Program-made: the position numbers and the translations under genes
Shown here: positions 50,286 through 56,814 of the stretch, piece after piece
How the letters are laid out: each line of letters starts with the position of its first letter
How positions within the stretch are numbered: the stretch's first letter is position 1
Assembly: GCF_900460315.1 (NCBI RefSeq)
Contig: NZ_UHIO01000001.1
Coordinates: forward strand, 1,951,501 to 2,015,500
Direction: 5' to 3'
From: Veillonella criceti
Lineage (GTDB): Bacteria; Bacillota; Negativicutes; Veillonellales; Veillonellaceae
Length of the DNA stretch: 64,000 nucleotides
The notes under the pieces: generated by a model
Database searches by the model: none
Seen by the model: only the letters and a program-made list of their open reading frames with translations
What the model was told of the DNA's origin: nothing

Positions 50286-50334
50286 ACAGTGGCTATTATA
50301 TATTGATTTTAGTATATAATAGCCACTATTTTAT
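50286..50334 (+). terminator. intrinsic terminator after the efflux gene
   Basis: A long hairpin ACAGTGGCTATTATATA / TATATAATAGCCACTATTTTATTT about 90 bases past the stop, near-symmetric, with a T-rich tail. The rest of the 326-base gap to the next gene holds only AT-rich sequence and a presumed promoter. Confidence 0.8.
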
Positions 50335-50525
50335 TTATATTTATTACAAATATAGTTTCAGTATTCATTAGATAATAGGTAAAAATTAATCATACTTTAT
50401 TGACAGGAATTAATGCGCGGTGTAAAATGAATGCACATTCATATATAAATTTGGATGTTTTTTATTTTTATCAGTTATTCCTATACAAAAAGAAGGAATT
50501 AAAACTTATACTAAGGAGAGAGAGT

Positions 50526-51617
50526 ATGATTAAAGACAAATCTATTGAAGAAGCTAGAGCTGAGATTCATTTTACTCGAAAAATGAATGCGTGCCCTATT
50601 GATTTTTCCCCATTTCAATCGAGTAATCCAAGAGCTATAGGGGAACAAAAAGAATATGAAGGCCGTGATGCATCTAACTTTAATCGTCGTCAAAAATATG
50701 CAGATCCAGAAGAGCCTCAATTTACAACGCCATTTGGTGATGGTGAAGGAGAACTTCCAGTAGAAGAAGGTCGTTACCGTTTAGTTTGGTCTCGTCATTG
50801 CCCTTGGGCTAATCGTGTGTCTATCGCTATTGATTATTTAGGGTTAGATAAAGTAATTTCTAAAGGCGTAGTAGATCCGCTCCGTCCTGCTGGCGTTATT
50901 GGGGATTGGTTCTTTACTCTTGATGAGGGGGATGTGGATCCTGTTCTTAAAATTCACTCTTTAGGGGAGGCTTATCGTAAAGGTAATCCTAATTATGATC
51001 AACGTTCGACTGTACCTGCCATTGTAGATGTGCAAACAGGAGCTGTGGTTAATAATGACTATCATGTGTTGACTACGGATATTGCTGTGGCATTTAAAAA
51101 ATTGGCAGATCCTACAGTACCAGATATTTATCCAGAAGAGTTGAGAGATGATATTGACGCTCTTAATGAAGTAATTTATGCGGATGTCAATTTAGCTGTT
51201 AATTTGGCGGCTATGGTGAATAATCAGAAAGATTATGAATTCTATTTTGATCGAATTTTTAATCGTTTAGATTGGCTCGAAGAACGTCTTAGCCGTATGC
51301 GTTATCTTATGGGGGATACAATTACAGATCCAGATATTCGTCTATTCGTAACATTGCAACGTTTTGATCTCGTGTTTTATCAAAAATACTTTGTTAATAA
51401 GAAACGTTTGGTTGATTATCCAAATCTTTGGAATTATGCTAAAGATTTATATTCCATTCCTGCTTTTGGTAATAATACAGACTTTGATTCCATGCGTAAA
51501 CGTTTTTATTATGTGGATTATACACCGATTGAAGATTTACCACGTTTAGTTCCGAAAGGACCTGATGATGCTATTTGGTTAGAACCTAATGACCGTGCTG
51601 AGAAATTTGCAAAATAA
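50526..51617 (+). CDS. xi-class glutathione S-transferase-like protein (glutathionyl-hydroquinone reductase family)
   Basis: A 363-residue thioredoxin-fold plus helical protein of the YqjG/ECM4 type. The diagnostic active site WSRHCPWANR places the catalytic Cys at 92. The N-terminal extension before it (about 85 residues) is usual for xi-class enzymes. The C-terminal GST helical domain runs from about residue 190. Classical members reductively remove glutathione from hydroquinone conjugates. Here it heads an operon with an MmgE/PrpD protein and an amino-acid importer, which suggests a different thioether substrate. The ATG at 50526 follows AGGAGAGAGAGT. Confidence 0.88.
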   Translation: MIKDKSIEEARAEIHFTRKMNACPIDFSPFQSSNPRAIGEQKEYEGRDASNFNRRQKYADPEEPQFTTPFGDGEGELPVEEGRYRLVWSRHCPWANRVSIAIDYLGLDKVISKGVVDPLRPAGVIGDWFFTLDEGDVDPVLKIHSLGEAYRKGNPNYDQRSTVPAIVDVQTGAVVNNDYHVLTTDIAVAFKKLADPTVPDIYPEELRDDIDALNEVIYADVNLAVNLAAMVNNQKDYEFYFDRIFNRLDWLEERLSRMRYLMGDTITDPDIRLFVTLQRFDLVFYQKYFVNKKRLVDYPNLWNYAKDLYSIPAFGNNTDFDSMRKRFYYVDYTPIEDLPRLVPKGPDDAIWLEPNDRAEKFAK

Positions 51618-51626
51618 GGAATTTTT

Positions 51627-52985
51627 ATGAAAGAGATGGATGAAAACACAGCCACTATTGTGGAATTAATTCAGACTACCAATCTAATAGATAGACCTGA
51701 TTTGTTAGCATTGGCTAAAGTTGCTTTTATTGATTATGTAGCCTCTACCTTGGCTGCTTCTAAGGAGCCTAAGGTAGTGGCTACAGCACAGCAACTTGCA
51801 ACGCGTAAACGTGTTGCTCATAATCGAAAGCTAATAGGTCAACCGTATGAAGCGGCACCTGAGTATGCGGCCTTTTTTAATGGCTTTTGTTCTCACTATT
51901 TAGATTATGATGATGCACAGGCCAATATTGCCGGTCATTTTAGTACCGTGCTATTTTCTGTTCTGCTGTCTGTTGCTAAACCCACTGATATGGTGTTAGA
52001 TATTTTGACTGCTTATGTAGTAGGTGCTGAACTAGAAGGTTTGCTAGGTGCCTATCTAAATCCACAACATAAATTGGTTGGTTGGCATTCTACAGGTACG
52101 ATAGGTCCTTTAGGTGGTGCGGCCGCTTTAGCTAAATTAGCTAAGCTTACCGCGTCTGAAACGGCTCAATTATTATCGTTAGCAGGTACACAATCGGCAG
52201 GAATGGCTTTTCAAGCCGGATCAGATACTAAACCGCTTCATGCAGGGTTAGCGGCTCGTAATGCGGTCTTTGCTTTTTGGCTCTTACAAGAAACAAAATT
52301 AACTGCGAACCAGAATGTATTTAATAATGAGACCGGTTGGCTTAAGACATTAGGTGCTGTTGATATAGAGCCAACACAGTTACAATCACAGTGGTTACAG
52401 CCAGGGCAAATTAAAGAACCTGGCTTATGGATGAAGCTACATCCTTACTGCTCGGCAGCTATTTGTGGTGCTTCTGCTTGTGAAAAAATTCGTAAGCAAT
52501 ATCTAGTTCCAAGAGGATATAGTTGGGCAGATATTGAGCGCGTTACCTTTCACTTTCCGCCAAAGGCAGATACTGCTTTGCGATATAGCGCACCACAGAG
52601 TGGACAAGAAGGTCGTTTTTCTATGGAATTTGTTGGTTGGCAAATGTTAGCTTTAGGTCATATTGAAGACGATTTATTTAAACAGGCATCGGTACCGGAG
52701 GGATTTGTAGAATCACTGCAAGCAGGTCGTTTTTGTCGAAAGCATGATTTGCCTGAAGTCGCTAAGGATGTACGGATTACGAAAGTTACTGTGCAGGTAA
52801 AAGATGGGCAAGAATTTTCCTATATGGAAACGGCACCATTAGGCTCCCCTGCAAATCCATTTACTGCGGATATCTTATCTATAAAATTGGCTAACGCGAC
52901 ATCAACTAAAATGAGTGAAACCTTATTAGCGGTTATGAAAGATTGGCCACAGGGTACTATGGCTGAGATATTAAAACTTTTATAA
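51627..52985 (+). CDS. MmgE/PrpD family protein
   Basis: A 452-residue protein related to 2-methylcitrate dehydratase and cis-aconitate decarboxylase. The N-terminal helical domain contains FNGFCSHYLDYDDAQANIAGHFS and WHSTGTIGPLGGAAALAKL. The C-terminal domain has KLHPYCSAAICGASAC. No methylcitrate-cycle genes are nearby. In Bacillus subtilis a member (YxeQ) belongs to an operon with an acetyltransferase and an amino-acid ABC transporter, as here. Substrate unknown. Ten bases after the GST-like gene. Confidence 0.88.
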   Translation: MKEMDENTATIVELIQTTNLIDRPDLLALAKVAFIDYVASTLAASKEPKVVATAQQLATRKRVAHNRKLIGQPYEAAPEYAAFFNGFCSHYLDYDDAQANIAGHFSTVLFSVLLSVAKPTDMVLDILTAYVVGAELEGLLGAYLNPQHKLVGWHSTGTIGPLGGAAALAKLAKLTASETAQLLSLAGTQSAGMAFQAGSDTKPLHAGLAARNAVFAFWLLQETKLTANQNVFNNETGWLKTLGAVDIEPTQLQSQWLQPGQIKEPGLWMKLHPYCSAAICGASACEKIRKQYLVPRGYSWADIERVTFHFPPKADTALRYSAPQSGQEGRFSMEFVGWQMLALGHIEDDLFKQASVPEGFVESLQAGRFCRKHDLPEVAKDVRITKVTVQVKDGQEFSYMETAPLGSPANPFTADILSIKLANATSTKMSETLLAVMKDWPQGTMAEILKLL

Positions 52986-53084
52986 GTCAATGATTTATAG
53001 AAAGAAATCAGTATATATTTACATAAAAGATAGTAATTAAATATTGAAATACATAAAATGTTGTGAAAAGAGATGAGGAATAGT

Positions 53085-53927
53085 ATGAAGTTAAGAAAAT
53101 ATTGGAAGCGTGCAGCCTTATTAGGTACTTTGGTATTAGCTTTGGGGGTAGTTGCTGGTTGTGGTAGTGATGAAAGTACGGATACAGCCACTGTAAATCC
53201 CGATGCAAAAGTAGTAAATGTAGCTACGCGAGGTACATCGAAACCATTTTCTTATACGAATGATGATGGTACATTAACGGGGTATGATGTAGAGATATTG
53301 AAGGAAGTAGAACGACGTGATTCAAGCTTGCATTTTAACTTTAAGCCAATGGCTGTAGATGCGGCATTTGTAGCAATGGATGCAGGTCAAGTAGATATGA
53401 TTGCGAACCAAATGCGTAATAATCCACAGCGAGCTGCGAAATATATTTATACTAAAGAAATTAATAATTACACAGTTCGGAAGTTAGTAGTTAAAAAAGG
53501 GCGCACTGATATTCATTCTTTAAAGGATTTAGAAGGGAAAACAGTAGCTGCAACTACTAATTCAGAATTTGTAGATTTATTAAAACAATATAATGAAACG
53601 GCAACAACTCCAATTAATGTTATTTATACAGATAAGGGGACGGTAGAAACATTAAACTTAGTAGCTACTGGTCGTGCAGATGCAGCTGGTGAATATGAAT
53701 ACATGGTAACTACGGCTCAGAAAGATCGTAATTTACCAGTTGAATCTGTGGGTGATACATTAACGGATGTTCCTACTTATTTCTTACTTCGTAAAGATCC
53801 TGAAATGCAAAAAGTAGCAGATAAGATTGACGCACAAGTAAAAGCTATGCGCGCCGATGGGACTCTTAAAAAATTATCTGAGCAGTATTTAGGTGGTGAC
53901 TATACAGTAGAACCAGCTAAGCAATAG
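53085..53927 (+). CDS. polar amino-acid ABC transporter, substrate-binding lipoprotein
   Basis: A 280-residue family 3 solute-binding protein. The lipobox VVAGC places the lipidated Cys at 26. The mature protein shows VNVATRGTSKPFSYTNDDGTLTGYDVEIL, AFVAMDAGQVDMIANQMR and LKDLEGKTVAATTNSEFVDLLK, typical of cystine/polar amino-acid receptors. ATG 53085 was chosen for its AGGAA site; the ATG at 53073 is too early. It feeds the two permeases downstream. Confidence 0.9.
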   Translation: MKLRKYWKRAALLGTLVLALGVVAGCGSDESTDTATVNPDAKVVNVATRGTSKPFSYTNDDGTLTGYDVEILKEVERRDSSLHFNFKPMAVDAAFVAMDAGQVDMIANQMRNNPQRAAKYIYTKEINNYTVRKLVVKKGRTDIHSLKDLEGKTVAATTNSEFVDLLKQYNETATTPINVIYTDKGTVETLNLVATGRADAAGEYEYMVTTAQKDRNLPVESVGDTLTDVPTYFLLRKDPEMQKVADKIDAQVKAMRADGTLKKLSEQYLGGDYTVEPAKQ

Positions 53928-53945
53928 TTGGTAGGGAGGAATAGT

Positions 53946-54674
53946 ATGGGACAGTATTTTGATGTAGCCTATATGGTGAAATCCTTTCCAATCCTATTAA
54001 CATCGCTTAATATAACATTAACTATTACGATTGTAGCAACTATATTGGGTATTTTATTAGGATGCCTAATTGCCATTGCGCGTGTTAACAGAGTGCCTGT
54101 TTTAAAACAGGCACTTACTGTTTATGTCTCATTTATGAGAGGAACTCCTTTTTTAGTACAACTGTTTTTAATTTATTTTGGAGTGCCTGAAATTTTGAGT
54201 CATGTAGGTATTAGCACTAAGAATGTACCCGGCTTATTATTTGTTCTTGTTGTATTTACATTACATATAGGGGCTTATAGTTCTGAAATTTTGCGCAGTA
54301 GTATTTTGACGGTGTCACAAGGTGAAAAAGAAGCCGCTATGAGTTTAGGGATGACTAGTTTTCAAAGTTATCGCCGCATTATTTTACCACAAGCGTTTAC
54401 TATGGCGATTCCGCCATTAATTAATAGTGTGATTGGTATGATGAAAGGTACATCTTTAATTTTTAATGTAGGTGTAGTAGATATTATGCGTCGTGCTGAT
54501 TTAATGGGAGCTAATTCACAGCGTAGTTTAGAGTTATTTGTAGATGTTGCTATTATCTATGGGTTATTAGTATTGATTATTTCATTAATTGGGCGATTTT
54601 TAGAGCGTCGTTATACTATTAGTGAGCGCGTTGCACGGATGACGGCAAACCGTACCGTTGCTAGTAAGGGGTGA
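53946..54674 (+). CDS. amino-acid ABC transporter permease 1 (HisM family)
   Basis: A 242-residue inner-membrane permease with five hydrophobic helices. The FMRGTPFLVQLFLIYFGVP segment and the EAA loop EKEAAMSLGMTSFQSYRRIILPQAF are family signatures. The ATG at 53946 follows GGGAGGAATAGT. Four-base-type overlap with the next permease's upstream site (GTGA). The heterodimer partner is the next gene. Confidence 0.9.
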   Translation: MGQYFDVAYMVKSFPILLTSLNITLTITIVATILGILLGCLIAIARVNRVPVLKQALTVYVSFMRGTPFLVQLFLIYFGVPEILSHVGISTKNVPGLLFVLVVFTLHIGAYSSEILRSSILTVSQGEKEAAMSLGMTSFQSYRRIILPQAFTMAIPPLINSVIGMMKGTSLIFNVGVVDIMRRADLMGANSQRSLELFVDVAIIYGLLVLIISLIGRFLERRYTISERVARMTANRTVASKG

Positions 54675-54679
54675 GGCAC

Positions 54680-55402
54680 ATGGAATCAACCAGTATTATT
54701 AGCTTTCAATACATAAGCGGTACTTTTTGGTATGTATTAGGATATGTAAAAGTAACTTTGTGGCTTACGTTTGCTAGTGTAGGCCTTGGTGTAGTATTAG
54801 GTTTACTTAGCTCGGTGGCACAGCTTAATCGAATACCGATTATGAGTCAGATGGCAGATATTTTTGTTATTGTATGTCGTAGTTTGCCTAATATGGTATT
54901 ACTTTATTTAGTATATTATGGTTTACCTATTGTATTCCTTGCCTTAGAAGATCAGACGGGTGTTCATGTACCATATGAAAAAGTACCAGCTTCGTTAGTC
55001 GCTGTAGTGGGCTTAACCTTGCATACAGGAGCCTATTTGAGTGAAATTTTCCGCGCCGCGATTCAGTCAGTTCCTAAAGGGCAAGTAGAAGCTGCATTAG
55101 CTATTGGCATGACATGGACACAAGCATTTCGTCGTATTGTGTTACCACAGGCTACCGTATTTGCCTTGCCTTTATTCGCTAATCAGTTCTTAAATACGAT
55201 GAAAAGTACTAGTATAGTATTTATTATTACCGTAGTAGAATTATTGGGGGCTGCGAAGCTTTATGTGGAAGATAATTCAGCCTATTTTGAAGCGTATATT
55301 GTAGTAGCGCTTATTTATTGGGGATTAGGAATTATTTTTGAGTTTATTTTTGAACAGTTGGAGCACCGGTTGAGTCAATATAAACGAGGTAATGCTGTGT
55401 AA
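54680..55402 (+). CDS. amino-acid ABC transporter permease 2 (HisM family)
   Basis: A 240-residue permease homologous to the preceding one, but clearly diverged. CRSLPNMVLLYLVYYGLP replaces the RGTP motif and the EAA loop reads GQVEAALAIGMTWTQAFRRIVLPQA. Two distinct permeases imply a heterodimeric channel, as in TcyL/TcyM of Bacillus. The ATG at 54680 follows GGGGTGAGG. Confidence 0.9.
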   Translation: MESTSIISFQYISGTFWYVLGYVKVTLWLTFASVGLGVVLGLLSSVAQLNRIPIMSQMADIFVIVCRSLPNMVLLYLVYYGLPIVFLALEDQTGVHVPYEKVPASLVAVVGLTLHTGAYLSEIFRAAIQSVPKGQVEAALAIGMTWTQAFRRIVLPQATVFALPLFANQFLNTMKSTSIVFIITVVELLGAAKLYVEDNSAYFEAYIVVALIYWGLGIIFEFIFEQLEHRLSQYKRGNAV

Positions 55403-55495
55403 GTAAAGTATATCTATATGTATTTAGTTACATAAGATTATAGTATTAGCATGTCTAATGGCGTATATATAGATTAATTGAGAGTAGAGGATTCT

Positions 55496-56254
55496 ATGAT
55501 TGAGATACAAAATGTGAGAAAATCCTTCGGGAATCGTGAAATTTTGAAGGGCATAGATATAACGGTACCGACAGGGTCGGTTACTGTTATTCTGGGGCCT
55601 TCAGGGAGTGGTAAAACTACATTTTTACGGACGCTTAACTTTTTAGAAAAAGCGGATGCTGGAAAAATGACCTTGAATGATGTGACGGTAGACTTACATA
55701 ATGCATCAAAGAAAGAAATATTACATATTCGTCGCAACACATCTATGGTATTTCAGATGTATAATCTATTTTCTAATATGACGGCTCTTGAAAATGTTAT
55801 GGAAGGGCTTGTGACTGTTAAAGGGATGAAAAAATCGGAAGCTCGTATTAAAGCTGAAAAATGTTTGGAAGCAGTTGGGATGAAAGACTTTGCAGATTAT
55901 TATCCCGTACAACTATCTGGAGGTCAACAACAGCGTGTTGGTATAGCCCGGGCGATTGCAATGGATCCGGCTGTCATATTATTTGACGAACCAACCAGTG
56001 CGCTTGATCCTGAACTTGTGGGTGAAGTGTTGGGGGCGATTAAAACGATTGCTCGTGAAATGCATGTTACCATGATTGTCGTTACCCATGAGATTGGCTT
56101 TGCTAAAGAAGTAGCTGATCAAGTTATCTTTATGGAACAAGGTGTTGTAGTAGAACAAGGAACGGCCAAAGAAGTGATTAGTAATCCTCGTGAAGAGCGT
56201 ACTCGCCAATTTTTAAATCGCTACTTAGGACAGTGGGAGGATTATGTAATATGA
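55496..56254 (+). CDS. amino-acid ABC transporter ATP-binding protein
   Basis: A 252-residue ATPase. Walker A is GPSGSGKTT, the signature [14 protein letters not shown], and Walker [21 protein letters not shown]; Thr-His of the switch region is [15 protein letters not shown]. This is the GlnQ/TcyN type. The start is ATG 55496, after GTAGAGGATTCT. A 93-base gap separates it from permease 2, and its stop overlaps the acetyltransferase start (ATGA). Confidence 0.93.
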
Positions 56255-56814
56255 GTCAAACTGATGTAGATAATCAAAATATGGATAAACAAGTTAAGTC
56301 AATTCGTATTGAATCACTTGATAATCTTACGTATCGTCAATTGACTGAGGCTGATGGAGCTGTGTATTACCAAGTTCTTCATGAGGGGTATGCTAGCAAT
56401 TTAGAGTATGGTGTTGATTTTTCAGCTAGTCATATGACTGAAGTAGATGCTACAGCTTGGCTGAGGGAACATCCTACATATGGTTTATTTGTAGCCGAGC
56501 AATTAGCGAGTTCCATTACCTTGCGTATGCCATGGGGGCCGAAGCCAGGGCCGCGGGAGTATCCGCATATTGGTCATTTTGTAACGTCACCACATTTCAA
56601 AAATCAAGGCTATGCAAAGAAATTGCTTCAATGGTTAGAATCAGAGGTTTTGCATAATCAGTTAAAGGCCCCATTAGTTACTTTGGGCACGGCGGATACA
56701 CATCCCTGGCTTAAGGATATGTATATAAGTTTAGGGTTCACGATTACGAAAGTAATGCAACTGCCGGGACTTACACATCAAACAATTTATTTTGAAAAGA
56801 AAATTTCACAATAA
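56251..56814 (+). CDS. GNAT family N-acetyltransferase
   Basis: A 187-residue acetyltransferase. An N-terminal extension of about 30 residues precedes the GNAT fold. Motif A includes [23 protein letters not shown] (the Q/R-x-x-G-x-A acetyl-CoA loop) and the C-terminal strand [13 protein letters not shown]-type segment [12 protein letters not shown]. Start ATG 56251 overlaps the ATPase stop by four bases. It ends the GST/PrpD/ABC operon. An amino-acid-type substrate imported by the transporter is likely, as with YxeL in Bacillus; this is inference. Confidence 0.85.

Follow-up and report, generated by a model that had tools for sequence, protein, structure and literature searches.

A putative cysteine-salvage operon of Veillonella criceti associates a xi-class GST-like protein with partners known from yxe-type loci

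This work deals with an operon of Veillonella criceti carried by a stretch of 64,000 nucleotides (contig NZ_UHIO01000001.1, positions 1,951,501 to 2,015,500), hereafter the window. Seven unbroken open reading frames (ORFs), all on the + strand and spanning positions 50526 to 56814, encode a glutathione S-transferase (GST)-like enzyme, an MmgE/PrpD-family protein (PrpD in what follows), the substrate-binding lipoprotein (SBP), two permeases and ATPase of an amino-acid ABC (ATP-binding cassette) transporter and a GNAT N-acetyltransferase. We propose that this operon recovers cysteine from an S-substituted form of the amino acid, for which a carboxyalkyl adduct akin to S-(2-succino)cysteine (2SC) is the most likely candidate – a reading which, in our judgement, may equally well prove right or wrong. 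To judge from the sequences, the locus represents a third and divergent form of the yxe-type salvage locus, rather than just a yxe locus in which one enzyme has been exchanged, because its GST lacks residues typical of glutathionyl-hydroquinone reductases (GHRs) and because its PrpD belongs to a separate clade, devoid of a tyrosine base. If the proposal is right, it shows anaerobes recovering cysteine from adducts, and it gives a role to a GST group whose name suggests a glutathione chemistry that its active site speaks against.

The term of comparison is the yxe (scm) locus of Bacillus subtilis, which comprises YxeK, YxeL, YxeMNO, YxeP and YxeQ. In a survey that defines such loci by three of five components, a variant with the monooxygenase YxeK and another with the lyase 2SL are described, while 11 of 102 loci have neither, and additional genes may be involved (PMC9706529). 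The window operon and the B. subtilis locus both bring together a GNAT, an MmgE/PrpD protein and a polar amino-acid ABC transporter, but the former has no YxeK and no linked YxeP, begins with a xi-fold GST, has two permeases and carries a PrpD of another clade. With the 2SL-type loci (PMC9706529) it shares the GNAT family, a PrpD, an ABC transporter and what would be independence from oxygen; there, by contrast, a fumarate-lyase-type enzyme replaces the GST, and PrpD falls on the YxeQ side of the tree.

The yxe kinship recognised by the first-pass annotation is borne out by the GNAT (56251–56814, + strand), which over 159 residues is 41.5% identical to its counterpart in a 2SL-type locus (L117) and 39.0% identical to that of a YxeK-type locus (L110). 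The GNATs of GST-, YxeK- and 2SL-type loci form one family, marked by the motifs PWGPxPGP, PHxG and LGTAxxHPWL in that order, and by family the window protein is a predicted YxeL-like enzyme. The transporter, too, is homologous to those of three reference yxe-type loci (29–55%), yet with two permeases. Around the best PrpDs beyond the GST type we inspected 13 neighbourhoods: eight are YxeK-type (L106–L113, Bacilli), three 2SL-type (L115–L117, Negativicutes) and two neither (L114, L118), and no GST is found in any of the 13. The identification of YxeK rests on Pfam in L106, L107 and L110 and on similarity elsewhere, the GNAT was seen as an ORF in five of the eight YxeK-type loci, and 2SL is named here by similarity and family only. 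A YxeK encoded elsewhere in the V. criceti genome was considered and rejected: in a search of 19 genomes (those of 18 named loci and the window's own; L044, L052 and L058 were excluded), which also served for the 2SL, M20 and PF04262 searches below, the only PF00296 match of the window's genome gave E 0.088 or worse against three YxeK-like queries.

The gene set goes beyond chance. Among 200 Negativicutes genomes, 16 have a match to the GST: V. criceti itself, 13 with a protein 75–96% identical, one that retains a remnant (G055) and another that has divergent paralogs (G069). Some match to PrpD occurs in 66 of the same genomes, but matches of at least 47% best-segment identity are confined to the window genome and to those same 13 GST carriers, the next PrpD standing at 33%. 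This exact coincidence of close GST and close PrpD argues, together with the conservation of the set across families, that it reflects more than chance. In all 14 Negativicutes loci, the window included, the GST gene is followed by an adjacent PrpD gene and accompanied by the SBP, two permeases and the GNAT; the ATPase is present in 13, and only L036 departs from the order, with the GNAT placed before the SBP. The anticipated recurrence of the neighbourhood in other anaerobes was thus observed. Carriers with a species or strain name were found in the genera Veillonella, Megasphaera, Acidaminococcus and Mitsuokella; among them, V. ratti, V. intestinalis and Veillonella sp. R32 are the nearest to the window (GST 95–96% identical), and V. 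parvula SKV38 is a strain that can be worked with in the laboratory.

The association also crosses families. A scan of contigs for the GST yielded 21 loci: nine from Negativicutes, 11 from Lactobacillaceae with usable flanks and one on a contig of 3 kb (L058), excluded from the linkage counts. In the 11 Lactobacillaceae loci the GST is 61–66% identical to that of the window, the gene order is reshuffled and the transporter, as in yxe loci, has a single permease. The SBP lies near the GST in all 11 stretches, the GNAT in 10 and PrpD in eight, together with an M20 hydrolase in six and a 2SL-like lyase in five (several genes of L051 are split, perhaps by assembly errors, and its stretch extends 4.6 kb upstream of the GST; in L053, PrpD may likewise be split). 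In a sample of 398 Bacilli, 17 have any GST match; the sole one above 51% is in G207, one of these lactobacilli, and G207 again holds the sole PrpD that exceeds 32% along most of its length. As a control, 10 GSTs of Bacilli that are 57–65% identical to Escherichia coli YqjG have no PrpD, GNAT, SBP, permease, M20 or 2SL match nearby; weak ATPase matches, and nothing else, accompany four of them.

The GST-like protein (50526–51617, + strand) can be placed firmly in the xi class on the strength of its sequence and predicted structure. With phmmer it matches 4pts at 9.8e-76 and YqjG at 5e-38. A model built on 46 sequences (10 had given a poor one) reaches a predicted local distance difference test score (pLDDT) of 85.8, and superposes on 4pts with Z 36.6 and a root mean square deviation of 2.2 over 303 aligned residues, and on YqjG (4g0i) with Z 33.2 and 2.8 over 304. 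The first-pass annotation was right in assigning it to this class with an intact Cys92 in the motif CPWANR (codon at 50799–50801, + strand). The CPWA sequence is kept in all 25 operon-type GSTs; together with three divergent paralogs, these make up a clade supported at 100/100 (L096, with an internal stop, was excluded from the tree, and L051b entered it without its N-terminus). Cys92, Trp128, Arg160, Val163 and Pro164 are invariant across 46 aligned homologs, the first three corresponding to Cys63, Trp96 and Arg130 of YqjG.

What the protein shares with the GHRs of the class (YqjG, ECM4, PcpF) and with MstX is thus the fold, the CPWA cysteine, the G-site tryptophan and the arginine of YqjG and ECM4. 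The rest of the active site differs. Glu148-Ser149 of YqjG is replaced by Asp178-Tyr179, and the 25 operon-type GSTs all have Asp or Asn followed by Tyr at this site. Tyr195, Tyr253 and Tyr296 of the E. coli enzyme have been called perfectly conserved in the xi class (PMC6345682). Yet Tyr195 has become Asn226 and Tyr253 Phe284 in the window, with Asn and Phe in 25 of 25, while the His295-Tyr296 pair reads Arg-Phe with MAFFT or Phe-Tyr with HMMER, the third tyrosine site being ambiguous (Phe327 or Tyr328, respectively). Nine GHR controls, by contrast, keep Glu-Ser and all three tyrosines. A conserved N-terminal extension of about 65 residues and the operon context set the protein further apart. 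An ordinary GHR was considered and rejected, at least two of the three tyrosines and the Glu-Ser contacts being lost throughout, and the reductive chemistry of GHRs cannot be transferred unexamined. Of the earlier suggestion that the enzyme breaks carbon–sulfur bonds reductively, as xi-class enzymes do, the idea survives, but not its direct carry-over from the GHRs.

In GHRs, Glu and Ser are described as holding the gamma-glutamyl end of glutathione, Trp and a Val backbone its cysteinyl part, and Arg its glycine carboxylate (PMC5063366). The residues kept and changed in the operon-type proteins thus suggest that the pocket for the cysteinyl unit has been retained, and the glutamate and quinone parts have not. 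PF04262, the family of glutamate-cysteine ligase, has no match in any of the nine Negativicutes genomes searched, V. criceti included, and has one, weak in one case, in nine of the 10 Lactobacillaceae genomes. N-acetylcysteine thioethers might then occupy the site. We may go one step further, and imagine a new GST subclass that does without glutathione, in which an N-acetylated S-substituted cysteine acts as a glutathione mimic and Cys92 removes the substituent reductively, without oxygen; we offer this idea tentatively, and hold it to be doubtful. Were it true, yxe-type loci would have a third solution to carbon–sulfur cleavage, besides the monooxygenase YxeK and the lyase 2SL, and one common to Negativicutes (Veillonella, Megasphaera) and lactobacilli. 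The searched text of the yxe survey has no occurrence of GST or glutathione S-transferase (PMC9706529), a further paper deals with deacetylases (PMC12757645), and among the open-access matches listed, subscription literature being outside this scope, there is no description of a GST in a yxe-type locus. The locus offers a candidate enzyme for yxe loci devoid of both YxeK and 2SL, together with named carriers.

The PrpD protein (51627–52985, + strand) is the only PF03972 match in the 2.25 Mb genome. Its best match in the PDB, 7bra, is named there as B. subtilis IRG1 and is 57–70% identical to the PrpDs of YxeK-type loci, for which reason we take it to be YxeQ. An itaconate-forming role was rejected, since 7bra groups with YxeK-type PrpDs and its IRG1 name is best taken as homology-based. 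The likening of the window protein to YxeQ was sound as to homology, but the proteins belong to distinct clades: a tree rooted at its midpoint puts the 14 GST-linked PrpDs on one side (100/100, branch length 2.16) and those linked to YxeK or 2SL, with L114 and L118, on the other. The active-site residues of 7bra are reported to be those of iminodisuccinate epimerase, with His and Tyr as suggested bases (PMC7347537). With that epimerase the GST-linked proteins share the MmgE/PrpD family, the His base and the Lys residues in the conserved blocks compared, but the Tyr base, found in all 10 YxeK- or 2SL-linked PrpDs compared (L106–L108, L110–L113 and L115–L117, which keep both bases), is replaced by Lys, Arg or Ala in all 14. 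Arg100 is lost in seven of seven Negativicutes and kept in seven of seven Lactobacillaceae. The two bases kept in YxeK- and 2SL-type proteins suggest for YxeQ a possible role as epimerase at the succino carbon of 2SC, and the activity of the GST-type PrpD may be an altered one. In two sister species the gene is broken, by a deletion over the GWHSTG motif in Veillonella sp. R32 (L039, 11102–12441) and by a frameshift in V. intestinalis (L040, 11102–12470). Because of these breaks, and because three Lactobacillaceae loci show no PrpD in the vicinity of the GST, it seems the least essential part of the operon.

Regulation, in relatives of V. criceti, would connect the operon with sulfur amino acids. 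Rfam detects T-box leaders upstream in all 10 Lactobacillaceae loci tested, at or above the gathering score in L047, L048, L055 and L059 and below it in L049, L050, L052, L053, L054 and L057, the best one per locus having E 3e-15 or better; L049 and L053 have two in tandem. Megasphaera (L046) has one, above the gathering score. The scan was run without L039, L040, L042, L044, L051 and L058, and at gathering level only for L041. In Lactobacillaceae the specifier is AUG with UGGU as T-box sequence, in Megasphaera UGC with UGGA, and by eye the register of the specifier relative to the following GAG is the same (L048 against L046). The base that follows UGG mirrors the discriminator base of the tRNA, and tRNA-Cys has U there. 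In L. paracasei, ATG and TGC are described as the methionine and cysteine specifiers (PMC6004538). Predicted Met and Cys T-boxes in relatives would thus tie the operon to the supply of sulfur amino acids, a regulatory link to both cysteine and methionine. In L047 a T-box separates the 2SL-like gene from that of the GST, and the two are therefore likely separate units. The remaining T-boxes of these stretches are found ahead of MetE-like genes (L054, L057) or of a second cluster of M20, pyridoxal phosphate (PLP) enzyme and ABC genes (L059).

Put together, the products of the operon would make the following pathway. The ABC transporter would import the S-substituted cysteine, and the YxeL-like GNAT would N-acetylate the conjugate, giving an N-acyl-cysteine that resembles the core of glutathione. 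PrpD might act on the acid side chain, by epimerisation or related proton chemistry. Cys92 of the GST would take the sulfur, with release of the side chain, and the N-acetylcysteine would remain in a mixed disulfide, to be resolved by thioredoxin or a small thiol, while a general amidohydrolase encoded elsewhere would remove the acetyl group. The whole route would run without oxygen.

Several observations weigh against this proposal. We know of no precedent for a reaction in which a thiolate attacks a plain thioether and the leaving group is a carboxylate-stabilised carbanion (no dedicated search for one was made). The linked deacetylase, noted as absent in the first-pass annotation together with the monooxygenase, is indeed missing: no YxeP-type gene is found at the window operon or at the other Negativicutes loci, and orthologs at least 68% identical to the Lactobacillaceae M20 protein, present in seven of 10 Lactobacillaceae genomes, occur in none of nine from Negativicutes, where the best relatives stand at 36–46% (36% in V. 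criceti). Orthologs of 2SL at 65% identity or more exist in six of the 10 GST-carrying Lactobacillaceae genomes tested, which argues against simple redundancy. T-boxes were found neither in the window nor in V. ratti (searched at gathering level only), V. parvula, Acidaminococcus or Mitsuokella. The GST, transporter and GNAT matches are intact in the two Veillonella species with a broken PrpD, whose break sites differ. The loss of the Tyr base and the separate PrpD clade suggest that the substrate may differ from 2SC. Finally, the actinobacterial relatives 4pts and 3m1g have Gly at the position of YqjG Arg130, so that the role of the G-site arginine does not appear fixed in the wider group.

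The nearest rival is a strict third 2SC pathway, in which the GST replaces YxeK or 2SL and itself cleaves N-acetyl-S-(2-succino)cysteine (2SNAC). The carriers of the operon are fermenters. YxeK, by contrast, requires oxygen, and the yxe loci that lack a known breakdown enzyme leave room for such a pathway (PMC9706529). It would also agree with the yxe kind of the GNAT and transporter, and with a window genome that has neither a close 2SL nor a YxeK-like protein. We nevertheless consider it unlikely, given the separate clade and altered active site of PrpD, the presence of 2SL beside the GST in several Lactobacillaceae and a difficult chemistry with a weak leaving group. The notion that the GST stands in for yxe enzymes may hold here, where YxeK is missing, but does not in that part of the Lactobacillaceae where a 2SL-like lyase and an M20 hydrolase accompany it. 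The Mitsuokella operon adjoins a lyase gene that was tried as a 2SL and rejected: it codes for an adenylosuccinate lyase (TIGR00928, 534.6 bits for a cut-off of 326.2), and a 39% relative is encoded elsewhere in that genome (L105).

The transporter brings up a second rival. The cystine importer TcyJKLMN/YtmJKLMN and the ytm operon for S-alkylcysteines combine two permeases with an YtmK-like SBP and an acetyltransferase, as does the window operon, which differs from them by scores under the cystine-transporter cut-offs and by the lack of flavin monooxygenases. Here, the SBP (53085–53927, alternative start 53073) has Lmo2349 and YtmK as best solved relatives, and the two permeases (53946–54674 and 54680–55402) are different, as had been remarked together with the likeness to cystine importers, each matching the other's sister-species ortholog at 35–37% identity. 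The nearest NCBIfam model of the ATPase (55496–56254; all four genes on the + strand) is TcyN, at 310.2 bits against a cut-off of 406. The operon might therefore import cystine-like compounds, the GST being a thiol transferase that reduces their mixed disulfides, and the xi enzyme of Corynebacterium glutamicum, MstX, is described as a monothiol transferase (PMC6815410). The Cys or Met T-boxes of relatives would suit this role as well. However, the steady company of a YxeL-like acetyltransferase and of PrpD with the GST would go unexplained. We regard this explanation as quite improbable.

Enzymes of the PrpD family perform proton abstraction and elimination. One could thus suppose that PrpD, or another protein, cleaves the carbon–sulfur bond by elimination and that the GST has an accessory part, for example in dealing with the thiol set free. 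PrpD did change in step with the GST, but three of the 11 Lactobacillaceae loci show none in its vicinity (one with 4.6 kb upstream only), and PrpD is broken in two Veillonella species where the GST is intact, which makes this very improbable. Least probable of all is the removal of quinone or catechol adducts of cysteine, as GHRs do for glutathione: the closest solved relatives are xi-class enzymes, yet at least two of the three quinone-site tyrosines are Asn and Phe in all 25 operon-type proteins.

As regards layout, the seven genes do run in one direction, mostly with short gaps or an overlap as first described, but two gaps are not short: in operon order the spacings are 9, 99, 18, 5 and 93 bases, followed by a 4-base ATGA overlap. 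The proteins match Pfam above cut-off (GST_C_2, MmgE_PrpD_N, SBP_bac_3, BPD_transp_1 twice, ABC_tran, GNAT), and no NCBIfam family covers the GST, PrpD or GNAT of the window. A sigma-70-like site, TTGACA-17-TAAAAT (50400–50428, + strand, 11 of 12 consensus positions), is the likely operon start, although promoter-like sites over the whole scan are at shuffle level (32 against 27.7). Upstream, a terminator-like hairpin of 18 pairs (50288–50327, + strand), called from the consensus scan alone, separates the preceding major facilitator superfamily gene from the operon. It is a near-perfect palindrome of 40 bases with weak matches to animal microRNA models of Rfam, probably a chance effect of the hairpin; these were the only Rfam matches obtained, and a T-box or riboswitch in the window was rejected.

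A few side observations concern the relatives. In G055, of the same genus, the operon has been deleted, leaving the GNAT alone (L026, 8700–8875), and at the joint the GST, near codon 36, runs into the ATPase, near codon 229, at a short stretch common to both genes. In the metagenome-assembled genome INTA.CYC.021 the intact GST gene is immediately followed by another copy, which is broken (L044, 384–2145). DUF1684 proteins, which may be part of the same pathway, adjoin the GST in L047 (12533–14470), L050, L051, L055 and L057; four of the five have them in pairs. A further GST, divergent from the first (about 40%), is found in Secundilactobacillus (L050, 17214–18134, and L051), with a 2-hydroxyacid dehydrogenase, an M20 hydrolase, SBPs and a 2SL-like lyase, and in Paucilactobacillus (L104, 9341–10234), with SBP, permease and PLP lyase genes. 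Finally, L037, L088, L089 and L090 hold another group of xi-like GSTs, which keep Tyr195 and Tyr253 and have Asp-Tyr in place of Glu-Ser; found next to genes for an amino-acid ABC transporter and a GNAT, in groups of three or four genes, they constitute a second GST-linked amino-acid import cluster.

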